From Ensifer sp. IC3342 (GTDB taxonomy: Bacteria > Pseudomonadota > Alphaproteobacteria > Rhizobiales > Rhizobiaceae): a stretch of DNA of 64,000 bases. The stretch covers positions 186,001 through 250,000 of the forward strand of contig NZ_JADYVE010000006.1 of assembly GCF_020193655.1 (NCBI RefSeq). The letters run 5' to 3'. The translations under genes and the position numbers were made by a program. Position 1 is the stretch's first letter, and each line of letters opens with the position of its first letter. Under the pieces are notes generated by a model. The model was given only the letters and a program-made list of their open reading frames with translations, was not told where the DNA came from and made no database searches. Shown here piece by piece: positions 10,919 to 53,246 of the stretch.

Positions 10919-10970
10919 CCTACGGCACTGCGCGTCTAATCAGACGCGCAAAGGGCGCTGTAGCACCTTA
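10919..10970 (+). repeat. RIME-type element R1 (hairpin 1)
   Basis: This copy has the R1 first-hairpin layout (CTACGGCA...GCGCGTCTAATCAGACGCGC...GCGCTGTAG). It is followed directly by an R2 element, making a mosaic of two families downstream of the beta-barrel gene. Confidence 0.75.
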
Positions 10971-10973
10971 GTT

Positions 10974-11033
10974 CCTTGTTTTTTGCATGTCGTTGTCCCA
11001 AAACCGCTGCACACTTTTGGGCGACATGCACTA
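10974..11033 (+). repeat. Palindromic element R2 abutting the stop codon of the beta-barrel gene
   Basis: The outer arms are TGCATGTCG and CGACATGCA, and the inner arms are CCCAAAA and TTTTGGG. The last three bases, CTA (11031-11033), are the TAG stop codon of the gene on the minus strand. Near-identical copies lie at 38270-38317 and 48284-48338, each also ending on a stop codon. Confidence 0.85.
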
Positions 11034-38161: not shown

Positions 38162-38213
38162 TGTCGGGCATTCAGTTCCGAACTTTCTTCCTCATGCATG
38201 GAAGACGTGCGTT

Positions 38214-38317
38214 AATGCACGTCGCGTTCAATCGAATTCATGCAACGCGCTTTAGGTCGTGGTTTTTGTGCATGTCGTAATCCCAACCCCGCTGCGCACT
38301 TTTGGCGACATGCATCA
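38214..38317 (+). repeat. Composite palindromic element R2 ending on the arsR stop codon
   Basis: A CACGTCGCGTTCAATCG...GCAACGCGCTTTAGG hairpin leads into the R2 core (TGCATGTCG at 38270, ending TTTTGGCGACATGCA at 38314). The next three bases, TCA (38315-38317), are the TGA stop of the minus-strand ArsR gene. Confidence 0.82.
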
Positions 38318-48007: not shown

Positions 48008-48335
48008 GCGGAAATCCTCCCATACTCGGTCGTGACGATGCCGGCTGCGAAAGGCCGGGTCCTTAACAATAGGGTCCGGCTCCCGCAGTGCAATGGCGGA
48101 GGATGGATCAGCCGCGGTTGGACGACGAAAGTCTAAGCACGGCGCCTCCAATGGGAATGGATGCTGCGCGCTTGCTCCCCTCTTATGCGTGTCGTTGCCC
48201 AAAACCGATGCGCACCTTTGGGCGACATGCCCTAAAGCGCGCCGCGTTCAATCGGACTCATGCGATGCGCTTTAGGTCCTTGTTTTTATGCATGCCGTTG
48301 TCCCAAAACCGCTGCACACTTTTGGGCGACATGCA
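48008..48335. other. 328-bp intergenic region with tandem R2 elements
   Basis: This lies between the Bug gene start and the ABC transporter stop, both on the minus strand. It contains two R2 cores (48186-48230 and 48291-48335) separated by a CTAAAGCGC...GCGCTTTAG hairpin. The left 170 bp should hold the Bug promoter, but no clear boxes are seen. Confidence 0.6.
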
Positions 48336-48338
48336 CTA
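48186..48338 (+). repeat. Tandem R2 palindromes ending on the ABC transporter stop codon
   Basis: The first R2 core ends GGGCGACATGCC at 48230. It is followed by CTAAAGCGC (48231-48239) pairing with GCGCTTTAG (48267-48275). The second R2 core ends TTTTGGGCGACATGCA at 48335. The next bases, CTA (48336-48338), are the TAG stop codon of the minus-strand gene. Confidence 0.83.
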
Positions 48339-50138
48339 AGTTCGCGCCGCGACGAAGAGCGCTTCTGCGCCGTGGTCGAACTGGAGCCGGGCGAGTTTCG
48401 CGTAGAGTCCACCCTGGCGGATCAGCGAGGCATGGGTGCCTTCCTCGACGATGCGGCCATGATCCATGACCAGGATGCGGTCGGCCTTGAGCACGGTCGC
48501 GAGCCGATGGGCGATTACAATGGTCGTGCGCTGCCGCATCAGGCCCTCGAGTGCCGTCTGCACCAAGGTCTCGCTCTCGGCGTCGAGCGCGGAGGTTGCT
48601 TCGTCCAAGAGAAGGATCGGCGCGTTCCTCAGGATTGCCCGCGCGATCGCGATGCGCTGGCGCTGGCCGCCGGAAAGCGTCACCCCGCGCTCGCCGACCT
48701 GAGTATCGTAGCTCTGGTCCAGTTTCGCGATGAACTCGTCGGCCTGCGCGGCAACCGCGGCTGCGCGCACGGCTTCCCGGCTTGCATCCGCTGCGCCGAA
48801 GGCAATGTTGTCGTGCACGGAGGCGGCGAAGATCGTCGTGTCCTGCGGCACGATGGCGATGCGGTCGCGCAAGTCCTTCGGGTCGACGCTGCGGGCATCG
48901 ATGCCGTCGACGGTAACGGTCCCTTTGGCCGGATCATAGTAGCGCAAGAGCATCGAGAACACGGTGCTCTTGCCCGCGCCGGAGGGACCGACGATCGCCA
49001 CGGTTTCCCCCTGCTTGACCGCAAAACTTAGGCCGTTCAGGCTCTTATAGTCCGGGCGCGCCGGATAGGCGAAGTGAACGTCGGCAAACGCGATGGCGCC
49101 TTGGGCCGGCACCGGCATGGCGACCGGATGGTCAGGCGCCTGGATCTGCGGTACTTCGGTCAGCAGTTCGTTGAGGCGCTCGGCGGCACCTGCCGCTTGC
49201 GAGAGCTCGCCCCAAACTTCCGAGAGCGCACCGAGGCTGCCGGCGGCGAAGACCGAATAGAGCAGGAACTGGCTGAGCGTGCCCGCCGAGAGCGTGCCCG
49301 CAAGCACGTCGCGCGCGCCGAACCAGAGCACCGCGACGACGCTGCCGAAGACCATGGTGATGGCGAATCCGGTGAGGATCGACCGCGCCCGGATCGCCGC
49401 GCGCGCGGCACCATAGGCGTCCTCCACCGCGCTGCCGAAGTGCCGGTTGGCGCTTTCCTCACCATTGAAGGCCTGGACCGTGCGGGCTGCGGCAATCGCC
49501 TCGCCGGCATAGGCGGAGGCTGTGGCAAGGGTGTCCTGCGCCTGGCGCGAGCGCCGACGGACGGACCGCCCGAAACCGACGAGGGGGAAGACGATGATCG
49601 GGATCGCGGCAAGCACGAGGCTCGAGAGCTTCGGGCTGGTGTAGATCATCATGCCGATCGCTCCGAGACAGAGGATCAGATTGCGCAGCGCCACCGAGGC
49701 GGTGGCGCCGACAGCTGACTTGATCTGAGTCGTGTCGGCGGTCAGGCGCGAAACGATCTCTCCGGACTGGTTGACGTCGAAGAAGGAGGCAGAAAGCCGA
49801 GTGACCTTCGCGAAGACATCGCGGCGGAGATCGGCGACGATGCGCTCGCCGAGCGATATGACGAAGTAGTAGCGCGCCGCGCTGGCAAGGGCCAGGACGA
49901 CGGCCAGCACCATCAGCATGGAGAAATAAGTGTTGATGAAACCGGAATCGGAATTGGAGAAGCCGTTGTCGATCATCCGCCGAACGGCCAATGGCAGCGT
50001 CAGGGTAGTGATAGCGGCGAGCGTCAGCGCGATCGCTGCTCCGATCACCAGCCGGCGATACCGCGCCAGGTAAGGCAGCACTGTGGCCAGCGGGCGAATG
50101 GATCTGCGTGCTGGCGGTTGGTTTTCTCGTCTGGACAC
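48336..50138 (-). CDS. ABC exporter, fused membrane and ATPase domains
   Basis: This is a 600-residue half-transporter of the MsbA/type IV exporter class. Six membrane helices span about residues 20-305. The nucleotide-binding domain has Walker [10 protein letters not shown], signature [14 protein letters not shown] and Walker [13 protein letters not shown], with the H-loop in VIAHRLATV. It probably acts as a homodimer; the substrate could be a lipid or drug. The GTG at 50138 ([12 protein letters not shown]) and the GTG at 50195 are both possible starts; I prefer the shorter. The stop codon sits at the edge of an R2 palindrome. Confidence 0.9.
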
Positions 50139-50704: not shown

Positions 50705-51223
50705 TCAGTTGGCGCCGAACGCGGTCTGCAGCAGCTTGATCTGCGCCTTGACGCCGTTCTGGTTGTCCGGAACGAAGGTCGTCGCCTCCTGCGGCCGGTA
50801 AATCTCGCGGTCAAGTATCGCGACGCGGTTTTGCAGGCGGAGCGACCGCTCGATCAGGTCGCGGAACATCTCAGGGAGATCGTTCCAGCCCGGCGCGTTG
50901 CGATCCACGTTGAAGCTGTCGAGGCGCACCTTGCTCTTTTCCGAAAGAACCTGATCACGGCTCATTTCACCGTTGTTGACGGCGCGCTGAAGGAGAAGCC
51001 AGGAGGCCATCTGCATCAGCCGCGTGGTAAGCCGCATCGACTCTGCGGCGTAGAGCACCGAGGCCATGCGCGGCAGTGCCTTGGAGGCCAAGCGGCCCGG
51101 CCCGTCGAGATAGCTCGCGGTTTCCTCGACCAGGCCCATGCCTTCCGCATAGAGTGCCTTGAACTGCGCCGAAGACGCAGCGTGTCCCGCGAAACTCACG
51201 GTATTCAATCCTCTCTCGGACAT
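50705..51223 (-). CDS. rcdA: RcdA-type protease adaptor (DUF1465)
   Basis: This 172-residue helical protein has the DUF1465 core: MGLVEETASYLDGPGRLASK, ESMRLTTRLMQMASWLLLQR and AVNNGEMSRDQVLSEKSKVR, closely matching the Caulobacter RcdA pattern. RcdA helps deliver substrates, including the cell-cycle regulator CtrA, to ClpXP with CpdR and PopA. ATG at 51223. A perfect CtrA box lies 121 bp upstream, so CtrA may control the gene for its own degradation factor, as reported in Caulobacter. A terminator follows. Confidence 0.9.
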   Translation of the reverse strand: MSERGLNTVSFAGHAASSAQFKALYAEGMGLVEETASYLDGPGRLASKALPRMASVLYAAESMRLTTRLMQMASWLLLQRAVNNGEMSRDQVLSEKSKVRLDSFNVDRNAPGWNDLPEMFRDLIERSLRLQNRVAILDREIYRPQEATTFVPDNQNGVKAQIKLLQTAFGAN

Positions 51224-51343
51224 GGCCTGTTTTCCCTGTTCAAACGCATCACGGTCGGGTAACGGGCGACTCCGGGAAAAGCTCCCCTGGCCCCCTCTAT
51301 GGTTGAAGAATGATCCCTTACCGCATTCCGCGCAAGGGTATTC

Positions 51344-51358
51344 TTAAGAAAGGGTTAA
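51344..51358 (-). promoter_or_regulatory. CtrA box upstream of rcdA
   Basis: TTAA-GAAAGGG-TTAA on the plus strand, which reads TTAACCCTTTCTTAA toward rcdA, is a perfect match to the CtrA full site TTAA-N7-TTAA. It lies 121 bp from the rcdA start. Confidence 0.65.
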
Positions 51359-51391
51359 TCTCCACAATTCTTTGAAATGCCCTGTCTGCCA

Positions 51392-51495
51392 CTGCATGTT
51401 TCCTCAAATCGGAGTCGATTTGAGGACAAAATCATGCAGCGATTCGAAGTGCTTTAGCGTCGTTTGCGCGTCTAAAGGGACTGGCGGCGCTGAAG
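51392..51495 (-). repeat. RIME-type element R1 (full, reverse, partly degenerate)
   Basis: Hairpin 2 is CTGCATGTTTCCTCAAATCG...GAGGACAAAATCATGCAG. Hairpin 1 is damaged on its right side (GTTTGCGCGTCTAAAGGGAC). It sits between the rcdA CtrA box and the small-RNA terminator. Confidence 0.8.
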
Positions 51496-51497
51496 AC

Positions 51498-51524
51498 AAA
51501 AAAAGAGCCGCGAAAAGCGGCTCT
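51498..51524 (-). terminator. Rho-independent terminator of the candidate small RNA
   Basis: On the minus strand, AGAGCCGC-(5 nt)-GCGGCTCT is followed by seven Ts. It is one of the strongest terminators in the window, yet no annotated gene ends near it; the closest upstream stop is 240 bp away. Confidence 0.93.
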
Positions 51525-51602
51525 CAAGGTAAAACAGGGAGAAAAATCAGACCCATTCGCCAGTCGGAGAAAATGTCTGAGTCCGGGGGAACCGGATGAC
51601 TA
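51498..51602 (-). ncRNA. Candidate small RNA, CtrA box upstream and strong terminator downstream
   Basis: Read on the minus strand, a CtrA box (51621-51635) is followed by a GATTAT-type -10 at about 51604-51609. The implied start is near 51600. The transcript of about 100 nt would contain stem-loop 1 (TCCGG-TTCCC-CCGGA), stem-loop 2 (TCAGAC...GTCTGA), a single-stranded C/U-rich stretch TTTTTCTCCCTG like the anti-ribosome-binding-site loops of rhizobial trans-acting RNAs, and a terminator AGAGCCGC-TTTTC-GCGGCTCT plus seven Ts. There is no open reading frame of note. It could instead be the 3' end of the DUF1192 mRNA. Whether it is an already named Sinorhizobium RNA cannot be decided here. Confidence 0.5.
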
Positions 51603-51620
51603 GATAATCGCCGAAAATGC

Positions 51621-51635
51621 TTAATTTGCCGTTAA
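51621..51635 (-). promoter_or_regulatory. CtrA box facing the candidate small RNA
   Basis: TTAA-TTTGCCG-TTAA on the plus strand, read as TTAACGGCAAATTAA on the minus strand, is a second perfect TTAA-N7-TTAA site in the same 540-bp gap. Confidence 0.6.
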
Positions 51636-51720
51636 GTCGCGTTCATTTCGGGTCGCGAAGCAGGAAGCGCGAGTAAGGCAAAGCACGTCCACGCCGTGAT
51701 CGATTCTAACGAGTTGAGAC

Positions 51721-51767
51721 GCGGGATGCGGGCGGAAAACCGCGCACACTCTTCCTCCCCGCTCTAG
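51721..51767 (+). repeat. Palindromic element R3 containing the DUF1192 stop codon
   Basis: GCGGGATGCGGGCGGAAAAC, then CGCGCACACT and CCCCGCTCTAG form the outer GCGGG/CCCGC pair with an inner GGCGG/CCGC pair. The CTA at 51764-51766 within CTCTAG is the TAG stop of DUF1192 on the minus strand. A related copy is at 63464-63508. Confidence 0.72.
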
Positions 51768-51952
51768 CGAAAGAGTTTGTCGGCCGCCGACCGGCTTGCC
51801 GATTTGCGGTCCCGTTCGGCCTCCAATCGCGCAATCTCTTCCGTCAACAGCGCGATACGCGCCGTCAGTTCATCGACAGAAAGCAACGACAGATCGCTGC
51901 CGATCTCATGAACCGTCTTTTTCTTGGGAAGGTCGTCGTCAAACAGGCTCAT
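51764..51952 (-). CDS. DUF1192 small protein
   Basis: This 62-residue protein starts MSLFDDDLPKKKTVHEIGSD and has the family core LSVDELTARIALLTEEIARL in a predicted coiled coil. It overlaps the 3' end of the MFS gene by 14 bp, so it is translated from the same mRNA. The function is unknown. Its stop codon lies inside an R3 palindrome. The long open frame upstream of the Met is a shadow of the MFS gene. Confidence 0.9.
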   Translation of the reverse strand: MSLFDDDLPKKKTVHEIGSDLSLLSVDELTARIALLTEEIARLEAERDRKSASRSAADKLFR

Positions 51953-53246
51953 TCGATCTCTCCTCTTCCTCGGGGTTGTCGCTGACATCCTCGTCACGCA
52001 GTTCATCCAGCGGCGCGGCACGCGGCGAAAGCTGCAGGCTCTCCGGCGTCGTCGGCGTACCCGCATTGACCGGCGAGAAGGCGTCGCGTTCGGCGACCGG
52101 AACCGGCGCGCGGCGGCGGCTGCGGACAATTGCGTAGGCCGTGATCAACATATGCGCGCAAGCCGTGATCATGAACAGGCCGTAGGGCCCCGTCGCGGTC
52201 ATAACCGGTCCGCCGATCGTCGGGCCGATGATCGTGCCAATTCCGTAGAGCAGCAAGAGGCCGCCCGAAACCTTGACGAATTCTTCTGGCGTGGCGAAGT
52301 CGTTGGCGTGTGAGACCGCGATCGGATAAAGCGCATTGGCGGCGGCACCGTAGATGGCGATCAGCGTCAAGACGATCCAGACCTGGCTCGGTTCGACGAG
52401 GAAGATCAGGAGCCCCGCAAGCGCACCGACGCCGGCAAGCGCGGCCAGCACGTAGCGGCGGTCGACACGGTCGGAAATACGGCCCGCAGGCAACTGCATG
52501 ACGGCTCCCGAAAAGATCGCCACGCTCATCATTGTCGCGACTGTGCTGTCGGAAAGACCGGCCTGGCGGCCGAAAACGGCGCCGAGCGTCCCGAAGGCGC
52601 CGTTGGCGATGCCGACCAGCAGGATGCCGAGAAACGAGACCGGCGAATTGCGATAGAGGCCGAGCAGATCGAGTCGGACCTGTTTCAGCGGTTGCGGCGT
52701 GGCGGCCTTGGAGAGCAGCGTCGGCAGCATCGCGACGCAATAGAGAATGCCGCAGATCATGAAAAAGAAGGTCGTCGTCGTCTCGCCGAACGGAATCATC
52801 ATCTGGCCGCCGACGACGCCGAAAAGCGTGATCGCTATATAGAGCGAGAAGATCACGCCACGGCTTTCATTGGTGGCGCGCTCGTTCAACCAGCTTTCGA
52901 TGATCATCGACGTGCCGGCTGTCGAGAAGCCGGTAACTGCGCGCAACGCAACCCACCAGATCGGATCGACCATGATGCCGGTAAGCAGGGAGATGATTGC
53001 GATCAAGGCCGTGAAGACACTGAAGGCGCGCACATGTCCGATACGCTTGACGACATTCGGCCCTAAGAAGCAGCCAAGCACAAAACCGGAGGCCCAGGAC
53101 GTGCCGAGGAGGCCGAGAATGGTTGTCGGATACCCTTCCGCCGTCCCGCGCACCGGCAGGAGCAGGCTCTGCAGACCGTTTCCAAGGAAGAGAAACAGGG
53201 TGCCAAGCAGGAGCGCGGTGACGGGAAGCAGGTTCTTTCTCATCAT
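51939..53246 (-). CDS. MFS transporter
   Basis: This 435-residue, 12-helix transporter has segments LLPVTALLLGTLFLFLGNGL, GFVLGCFLGPNVVKRIGHVR and VFTALIAIISLLTGIMV. The loop 2-3 motif (GPNVVKRIGHVRAF) and RISDRVDRRYVLA in the second half are typical of the family. It has a charged cytoplasmic C-terminal tail. It resembles the YcaD-like group; the substrate is unknown. I favour the start at 53246 (MMRKNLLPV); Met at 53327 is an alternative. DUF1192 overlaps its end. Confidence 0.85.
   Translation of the reverse strand: MMRKNLLPVTALLLGTLFLFLGNGLQSLLLPVRGTAEGYPTTILGLLGTSWASGFVLGCFLGPNVVKRIGHVRAFSVFTALIAIISLLTGIMVDPIWWVALRAVTGFSTAGTSMIIESWLNERATNESRGVIFSLYIAITLFGVVGGQMMIPFGETTTTFFFMICGILYCVAMLPTLLSKAATPQPLKQVRLDLLGLYRNSPVSFLGILLVGIANGAFGTLGAVFGRQAGLSDSTVATMMSVAIFSGAVMQLPAGRISDRVDRRYVLAALAGVGALAGLLIFLVEPSQVWIVLTLIAIYGAAANALYPIAVSHANDFATPEEFVKVSGGLLLLYGIGTIIGPTIGGPVMTATGPYGLFMITACAHMLITAYAIVRSRRRAPVPVAERDAFSPVNAGTPTTPESLQLSPRAAPLDELRDEDVSDNPEEEERSNEPV

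Follow-up and report, generated by a model that had tools for sequence, protein, structure and literature searches.

Introduction

The small RNA (sRNA) family BjrC1505 (Rfam RF02356), whose name derives from Bradyrhizobium, comprises conserved RNAs that have been on record for more than 10 years and for which we found no description of a function. BjrC1505 was reportedly verified in Bradyrhizobium japonicum by Madhugiri et al. in 2012, with lower levels in nodules. In Caulobacter crescentus, expression of the non-coding RNA (ncRNA) CcnA depends on functional CtrA, and a CCCC loop mediates its action at ribosome-binding sites (PMC8959179). Other Caulobacter ncRNAs have predicted CtrA sites upstream as well (PMC5988900). 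The authors of the CcnA study did not clearly detect a homologue in Sinorhizobium meliloti (PMC8959179), and a 2020 review relates two trans-acting sRNAs of this species, EcpR1 and GspR, to the cell cycle (PMC7143759). We analyzed a 64,000-nucleotide (nt) stretch of Ensifer sp. IC3342 (genome GCF_020193655.1), hereafter the window, in which a sequence-only reading had proposed a CtrA-induced sRNA between rcdA, a name that we and that reading take to apply to DUF1465, and a DUF1192 gene. The sequence comparisons make it likely that this gap encodes a CtrA-driven BjrC1505-type sRNA, which would probably repress mRNAs through an anti-Shine–Dalgarno-like core.

Results

A conserved CtrA site upstream of the sRNA

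The full CtrA site TTAA-N7-TTAA was found exactly twice in the whole window, both times in the gap beside rcdA, where the sequence-only reading had placed two perfect sites. That reading had also considered such a pair unlikely by chance, and the count agrees: in 100 dinucleotide shuffles, the site occurred 0.07 times on average and never twice. The distal site (box 2) lies at about -38 to -24 relative to the inferred start of the sRNA, and the proximal site (box 1) lies in the rcdA promoter region.

Conservation of both boxes was assessed in 82 loci: the best 80 of 560 RcdA relatives on genome contigs, together with the window and a single S. meliloti record. These 80 were selected by protein (RcdA) and not by RNA; by their titles the loci belong to Rhizobiaceae or related groups, 12 of the 80 titles saying only "Rhizobiales bacterium". 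Box 1 was exact in all 82 loci, 125–145 nt before the rcdA ATG. Box 2 was exact in 53 of the 82, compared with a chance rate of 0.16% in shuffles preserving base composition only, and had at most one mismatch in 74. It mostly ends 24–25 nt before stem-loop 1 of the RNA; a few stem-loop anchors were misplaced in this count (distances of 3–17), which we judged not to affect the mismatch counts. A conserved full site is therefore present upstream of the start, as in a CtrA promoter.

The same question was then asked across the class. Consensus positions of about 1–40 in the RF02356 model look like a CtrA box followed by a -10 element, and the model may include promoter DNA. Because it seems to contain the box positions, a box count on class-level RF02356 matches was set aside, and a promoter-free model, R1, was built from 30 RF02356 loci trimmed to the RNA alone (its E-values are rough). 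R1 matched 63 of 385 alphaproteobacterial genomes at E 0.001, and the 30 best loci from the 68 match rows in these genomes were examined in the 72 nt directly upstream of the RNA, with the remaining windows of the same loci as controls. An exact box was present in 11 of 30 loci versus 1 of 1067 control windows, and a box with at most one mismatch in 28 of 30 versus 9 of 1067. One of the 30 (L193, genome G035) was also in the R1 training set and several are close relatives; despite this non-independence, the contrast is large, and we take the CtrA site to be the putative ancestral promoter element of the sRNA.

Published binding data are consistent with this assignment. Chromatin immunoprecipitation sequencing (ChIP-seq) detected CtrA at the S. 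meliloti rcdA promoter region, and rcdA mRNA was unchanged on CtrA depletion (PMC4433202). Binding without a change in rcdA mRNA fits a second output at this locus.

The sRNA is a divergent member of the BjrC1505 family

Rfam gave no match at the sRNA locus at the curated cut-off. At a lax threshold, RF02356 aligned end to end with positions 51616–51498 of the minus strand at 24.3 bits, below the gathering cut-off of 50 bits; five of eight other related loci scored 26.7–35.8 bits, and the other three gave no row at E 0.5. Across the order Hyphomicrobiales, RF02356 matched 165 of 199 genomes, 138 of them above the cut-off, versus none of 14 control genomes; the genome of strain IC3342 gave no match at the threshold of this survey. 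The best 30 order-level loci share with the window the place of the sRNA upstream of rcdA, since rcdA was nearby in all 30 (DUF1192 in 24). One class-level match to RF02356 (L144) looks like a tRNA.

With the promoter positions removed, the homology persisted. R1 matched the locus in all 23 related sources given, with one extra weak match in L013 (E 0.009). In the window it matched 51499–51607 of the minus strand (E 9e-7 in 222 kb), and this site was the sole match at E 0.001 in the strain's own genome (E 3e-5). Among the 30 best class-wide R1 loci, the fetched flank contained rcdA or DUF1192 in 25 (rcdA in 17, DUF1192 in 21). As R1 matches the related loci and only the window site in its own genome, the sRNA is, judged from sequence, a single-copy, divergent BjrC1505-type gene. 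It resembles BjrC1505 in its full-length alignment, stem-loop 1, CUCCCUG core, terminator and place beside rcdA, but differs in falling below the Rfam cut-off and in stem-loop 2. Elsewhere, in genomes G406 and G572, two R1 matches lie less than 200 nt apart on one contig, which suggests tandem sRNA copies.

Structure of the sRNA gene

The minus-strand elements described by the sequence-only reading (a GATTAT hexamer, two stem-loops, a C/U-rich strand and an 8-bp terminator with seven Ts) were all located (Table 1). Structure was compared in two alignments: A1, 50 of the 82 loci hand-chosen to thin near-duplicates, and A2, the 30 best loci of the 165 matching genomes of the order, of which 27 are distinct and five have hand-adjusted row ends (L100, L108, L111, L113 and L114). 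In A1, 99.6% of cells were paired versus 21.5–46.7% in slid controls, and in A2, 96.6% versus 35.5–53.9%, a comparison that favors the counted structures because their source was the very alignments in which they were counted. Stem-loop 1 was paired in 98.8% of A1 cells, with one pair changed from G-C to A-U in 14 of 50 rows; stem-loop 2 was paired in 99.7%, with one-sided changes only. At the position of stem-loop 2, the A2 loci carry hairpins of a GAGTGG-CTCCT type. Compensatory changes were found in the A2 terminator stem, and A2 as a whole contained 6 doubly changed pairs versus 4.2 in shuffles, 5 of 500 of which reached the observed value. Support for the stems is thus strongest outside the group of the window, where there is enough variation for the test. 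In 41 of the 82 loci, the 3' side of stem-loop 1 has a GANTC (CcrM-type) site nearby.

The unpaired conserved segment is rich in C and U, a trait of sRNAs that mask ribosome-binding sites. Within it, TTTTTCTCCCTG is located at 51546–51535 of the minus strand. The core string TTTCTCCCTGTTTTACCTTGAGAGCCGC was present in all 82 loci with variable flanks; the core from TTTCTCCC onward was likewise present in all 82, and a run of five T in 59. The aligned core in A2 is GACGCCTCCCTGTT. The terminator was found upstream of rcdA in 82 of 82 loci, whereas the aligned -10-like hexamers vary (GATTGT, TATTAC and others). The 101-nt RNA looks non-coding, as its sole closed ATG/GTG/TTG frame has 10 codons plus a stop and another frame runs off the end.

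Simple scans of positions 50900–52100 were weak on their own, and the strength of the case for the sRNA therefore rests on conservation: three terminator-like sites were found versus 1.7 in shuffles, and no sigma-70-like promoter versus 0.4 in shuffles, an absence that says little.

Table 1. Features of the rcdA–DUF1192 region in the window (coordinates on the forward strand).
Feature	Position	Strand	Basis
sRNA gene of about 100 nt (inferred 5' end near 51597)	51498–51598	-	R1 match, RF02356 match, conserved core
Box 2, distal CtrA full site, sRNA promoter region	51621–51635	-	TTAA-N7-TTAA exact
-10-like hexamer GATTAT	51604–51609	-	sequence
Stem-loop 1, 5 bp	51582–51596	-	alignment A1
Stem-loop 2, outer stem TCAGAC/GTCTGA	51547–51580	-	alignment A1
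C/U-rich single-stranded core TTTTTCTCCCTGTTTTACC, presumed target-binding region	51528–51546	-	near-invariant columns in A1
Intrinsic terminator and T run	51498–51525	-	8-bp stem at 51524–51504, T run ends at 51498
Box 1, proximal CtrA full site, rcdA promoter region	51344–51358	-	TTAA-N7-TTAA exact
rcdA (DUF1465), 172 aa	50705–51223	-	ORF; S. meliloti orthologue annotated DUF1465; tblastn relatives
DUF1192 gene, upstream of sRNA, same strand	51764–51952	-	translation; orthologue annotated in S. meliloti
Copy of a dispersed repeat outside the sRNA, between its terminator and the rcdA promoter	51389–51496		43 match rows in own genome

Probable identity with S. meliloti Sm84/SmelC671

In Valverde et al. 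(2008), sm84 is flanked by SMc03988 and SMc03989, the three genes sharing a strand, with an expected length of about 110 nt and a Northern signal of about 80 nt (PMC2573895). Schluter et al. (2010) list SmelC671, equal to Sm84, with 100 nt (PMC2873474), and Reinkensmeier et al. (2011) describe relatives in several families (PMC3927594); the Rhizobium etli counterpart is ReC71. By counting genes from the 6S RNA in S. meliloti Ak57 (flanked by SMc03975/76, and assuming that one gene, SMc03982, is missing from the Ak57 table), we assigned DUF1192 to SMc03988 and rcdA to SMc03989. The distance to the 6S RNA was 12.85 kb in Ak57 versus 14.17 kb by published coordinates, a mismatch of 1.3 kb that is unexplained. 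By gene order, the sRNA of the window is very probably Sm84/SmelC671, with which it shares an intergenic location between two genes of its own strand, a length of about 100 nt and conservation in Rhizobiaceae and beyond. The published length was used to infer the 5' end in the window. In S. meliloti, counting back 100 nt from an RNA end in the T run puts the start a few bases past the -10-like hexamer, which by arithmetic places the CtrA box at about -36 to -22.

The statement of the sequence-only reading that no known gene ends there is therefore probably wrong, as Sm84/SmelC671 appears to be the same RNA and BjrC1505 a relative. What holds of its proposal is a discrete minus-strand gene with a CtrA site conserved beyond the genus; the RNA itself was not previously unknown. 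Three other sRNAs were rejected as identical to it: EcpR1 is flanked by divK-pleD and rpmG, GspR is SmelC775 with coordinates other than those of SmelC671, and PmaR reportedly occurs only in Agrobacterium and a single close Rhizobium strain. In the available literature on SmelC671 and its locus tags, we found no connection to CtrA or rcdA. One S. meliloti record, CP090106.1 (3.7 Mb, labelled plasmid pSymB), looks like a mislabelled chromosome, given that 6S RNA, tkt, gap, pgk and genes for ribosomal proteins lie on it.

Searches for mRNA targets

In 74 of the 82 loci, CAGGGA, the complement of UCCCUG, is no more than 30 nt away from the rcdA ATG. Of 120 S. meliloti genes, only 3 have it before their start, and rcdA is one of these. 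Within the reading of a CtrA-driven sRNA, these counts raise the possibility that the RNA pairs with the rcdA ribosome-binding site and thus protects CtrA. However, CAGGGA may be merely the rcdA Shine–Dalgarno sequence, and by duplex energy rcdA ranked only 20th among 120 S. meliloti genes and 33rd with a longer RNA (one genome, with prfB and any gene truncated at the end of a sequence stretch excluded). Such pairing is doubtful. The full feedback loop that would follow, in which the RNA made under CtrA prevents translation of rcdA and the resulting shortage of RcdA protects CtrA, as a rhizobial counterpart of CcnA, we regard as improbable.

In the genome of strain IC3342, AACAGGGAGA had 11 sites, one being the sRNA gene itself, versus 2 for the reversed control, and one site (L158) precedes the ATG of an open reading frame (ORF) of at least 100 amino acids (aa). 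GGTAAAACAGGGA, allowing up to two mismatches, had 57 sites versus 77 for the control; 30 loci were inspected, one of which was the sRNA gene. The ctrA leader, probed with the core of the window throughout in 18 of 19 loci, gave duplex energies that ranged from -14.2 to -16.6 kcal/mol for the 12 loci within the genus and from -8.4 to -20.7 kcal/mol for six others, and was nothing special as a target in these 18. The duplex ranking, the two motif searches and the ctrA leader test singled out no mRNA.

Layout of the locus

The gap between rcdA and DUF1192 spans 51224–51763 between two minus-strand genes; its median length was 384 bp in the 48 loci where DUF1192 was detected by script. In the window the gap also holds a dispersed repeat of about 105 bp, with several further copies within the window. 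About 100 extra nt lie between the terminator and box 1 in six of the 82 loci, and in five of these (the window and L007–L010) the dispersed repeat is present at this place; the extra sequence in L031 proved different on re-check. The sole Rfam match above the cut-off in the window is RF02600 ("Brucella sRNA CI27") at 48197–48346. This stretch recurs at 38204–38314 and 10968–11033, and the family may therefore be a dispersed repeat rather than an sRNA.

Discussion

From the site and its placement, we propose that phosphorylated CtrA binds box 2, overlapping the -35 region, and would activate the RNA of about 100 nt when CtrA is high. Beyond this, the RNA may act in trans, its CUCCCUG core pairing with purine-rich ribosome-binding sites and lowering the translation of several mRNAs. 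CtrA, an activator here, would thereby gain a repressing arm, because the RNA that it activates would lower mRNA translation. Downstream of the sRNA, rcdA has its own conserved CtrA box.

Several results weigh against this proposal. Box 2 has two mismatches in 8 of the 82 loci, and the loci are mutually related, so that counts are not independent. Under strict filters, R1 found no match in 322 of the 385 class genomes. Doubly changed pairs in A1 numbered 1, versus a shuffle mean of 1.1, and further pair types showed no excess over shuffles in either alignment. The duplex rank of rcdA and the unremarkable ctrA leader belong here as well. Whether box 1 or box 2 is bound is not stated in the S. 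meliloti ChIP-seq passages (PMC4433202), and the promoter that Valverde et al. give for Sm84 is of the sigma-70 type (PMC2573895).

Other explanations for the RNA and its box were compared; their probabilities overlap, and they do not exclude control by CtrA. The main one is that the RNA is a terminated rcdA leader, with the distal CtrA promoter driving rcdA and the terminator serving as an attenuator with conditional read-through. In all 30 order-level loci, the RNA precedes rcdA in the same orientation. The agrobacterial rcdA orthologues studied all have several transcription start sites with possible CtrA sites upstream, and the same paper remarks in general that these sites are more distant from the gene than their Caulobacter counterparts (PMC10469942). 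Rules for S. meliloti start sites, moreover, treat a start located up to 300 nt ahead of a start codon as a possible mRNA start (PMC3616915). On the other side stand the terminator with its seven Ts, a consensus fold without alternative pairing (the prediction yields one structure only), the roughly 100 extra nt that six of the 82 loci tolerate ahead of box 1, after the terminator, and the box that rcdA itself retains in all 82. In addition, no rcdA was found in 13 of the 30 class-level loci (tblastn in fetched flanks of up to 1.5 kb, some shorter). Taken together, these points leave a leader or attenuator with a small probability.

Similarly small is the chance that CtrA represses at the box, or that the box serves another regulator, the sRNA being driven by sigma-70 alone. 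The listed sigma-70-type promoter is in its favor, as are the microarray signals of Sm84 in six stress conditions (Valverde et al., PMC2573895). Against it, the scan found no sigma-70-like pair in the region, the 0.4 expected making this of little weight, and the box overlaps the -35 region rather than the -10 element or the start. A CtrA site overlapping the -35 region is the typical placement at CtrA-activated promoters. Least of all do we expect a 3'-untranslated fragment of the DUF1192 mRNA with an incidental box, because the conserved promoter element, seen in the spacing of mostly 24–25 nt to stem-loop 1 and in the class-wide box enrichment, points to a promoter of the RNA's own, even though DUF1192 is nearby in 24 of 30 order-level loci and the scan found no other minus-strand terminator between its stop codon and the sRNA.

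If CtrA drives the BjrC1505 family, the CtrA regulon would have an RNA arm common to most sampled Hyphomicrobiales (165 of 199 genomes) and present in part of the remaining class (63 of 385 by R1). A CtrA-driven sRNA may explain why CtrA binds at S. meliloti rcdA without a change in rcdA mRNA, and it may account for the extra starts at agrobacterial rcdA. S. meliloti is suited to a test, as a CtrA depletion strain and ChIP-seq exist. Should the RNA fall with CtrA in bacteroids, cell-cycle control would be linked to symbiosis. If the feedback through rcdA were true, such an sRNA would be spread over much of Hyphomicrobiales and into other alphaproteobacterial orders, often beside the gene of a CtrA-proteolysis adaptor.

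Our phrase searches of the literature for CtrA-regulated sRNAs found none, the phrases being narrow and supplements not covered, and a text search found no core sequence in the papers covered. The RNA itself is not new, and its link to a CtrA promoter appears to be. Among known systems, EcpR1 and GspR of S. meliloti are likewise trans-sRNAs of the cell cycle, but they lie at other loci, repress dnaA/gcrA and ctrA/cspA5, and accumulate under stress or in stationary phase; CtrA activation is not described for them in the available passages. CcnA, compared here by description, is the closest precedent for a CtrA-dependent ncRNA, but it raises CtrA and may repress GcrA (PMC8959179). With CcnA and the predicted CtrA sites of Caulobacter as precedents, the novelty lies in the regulatory claim for this sRNA.
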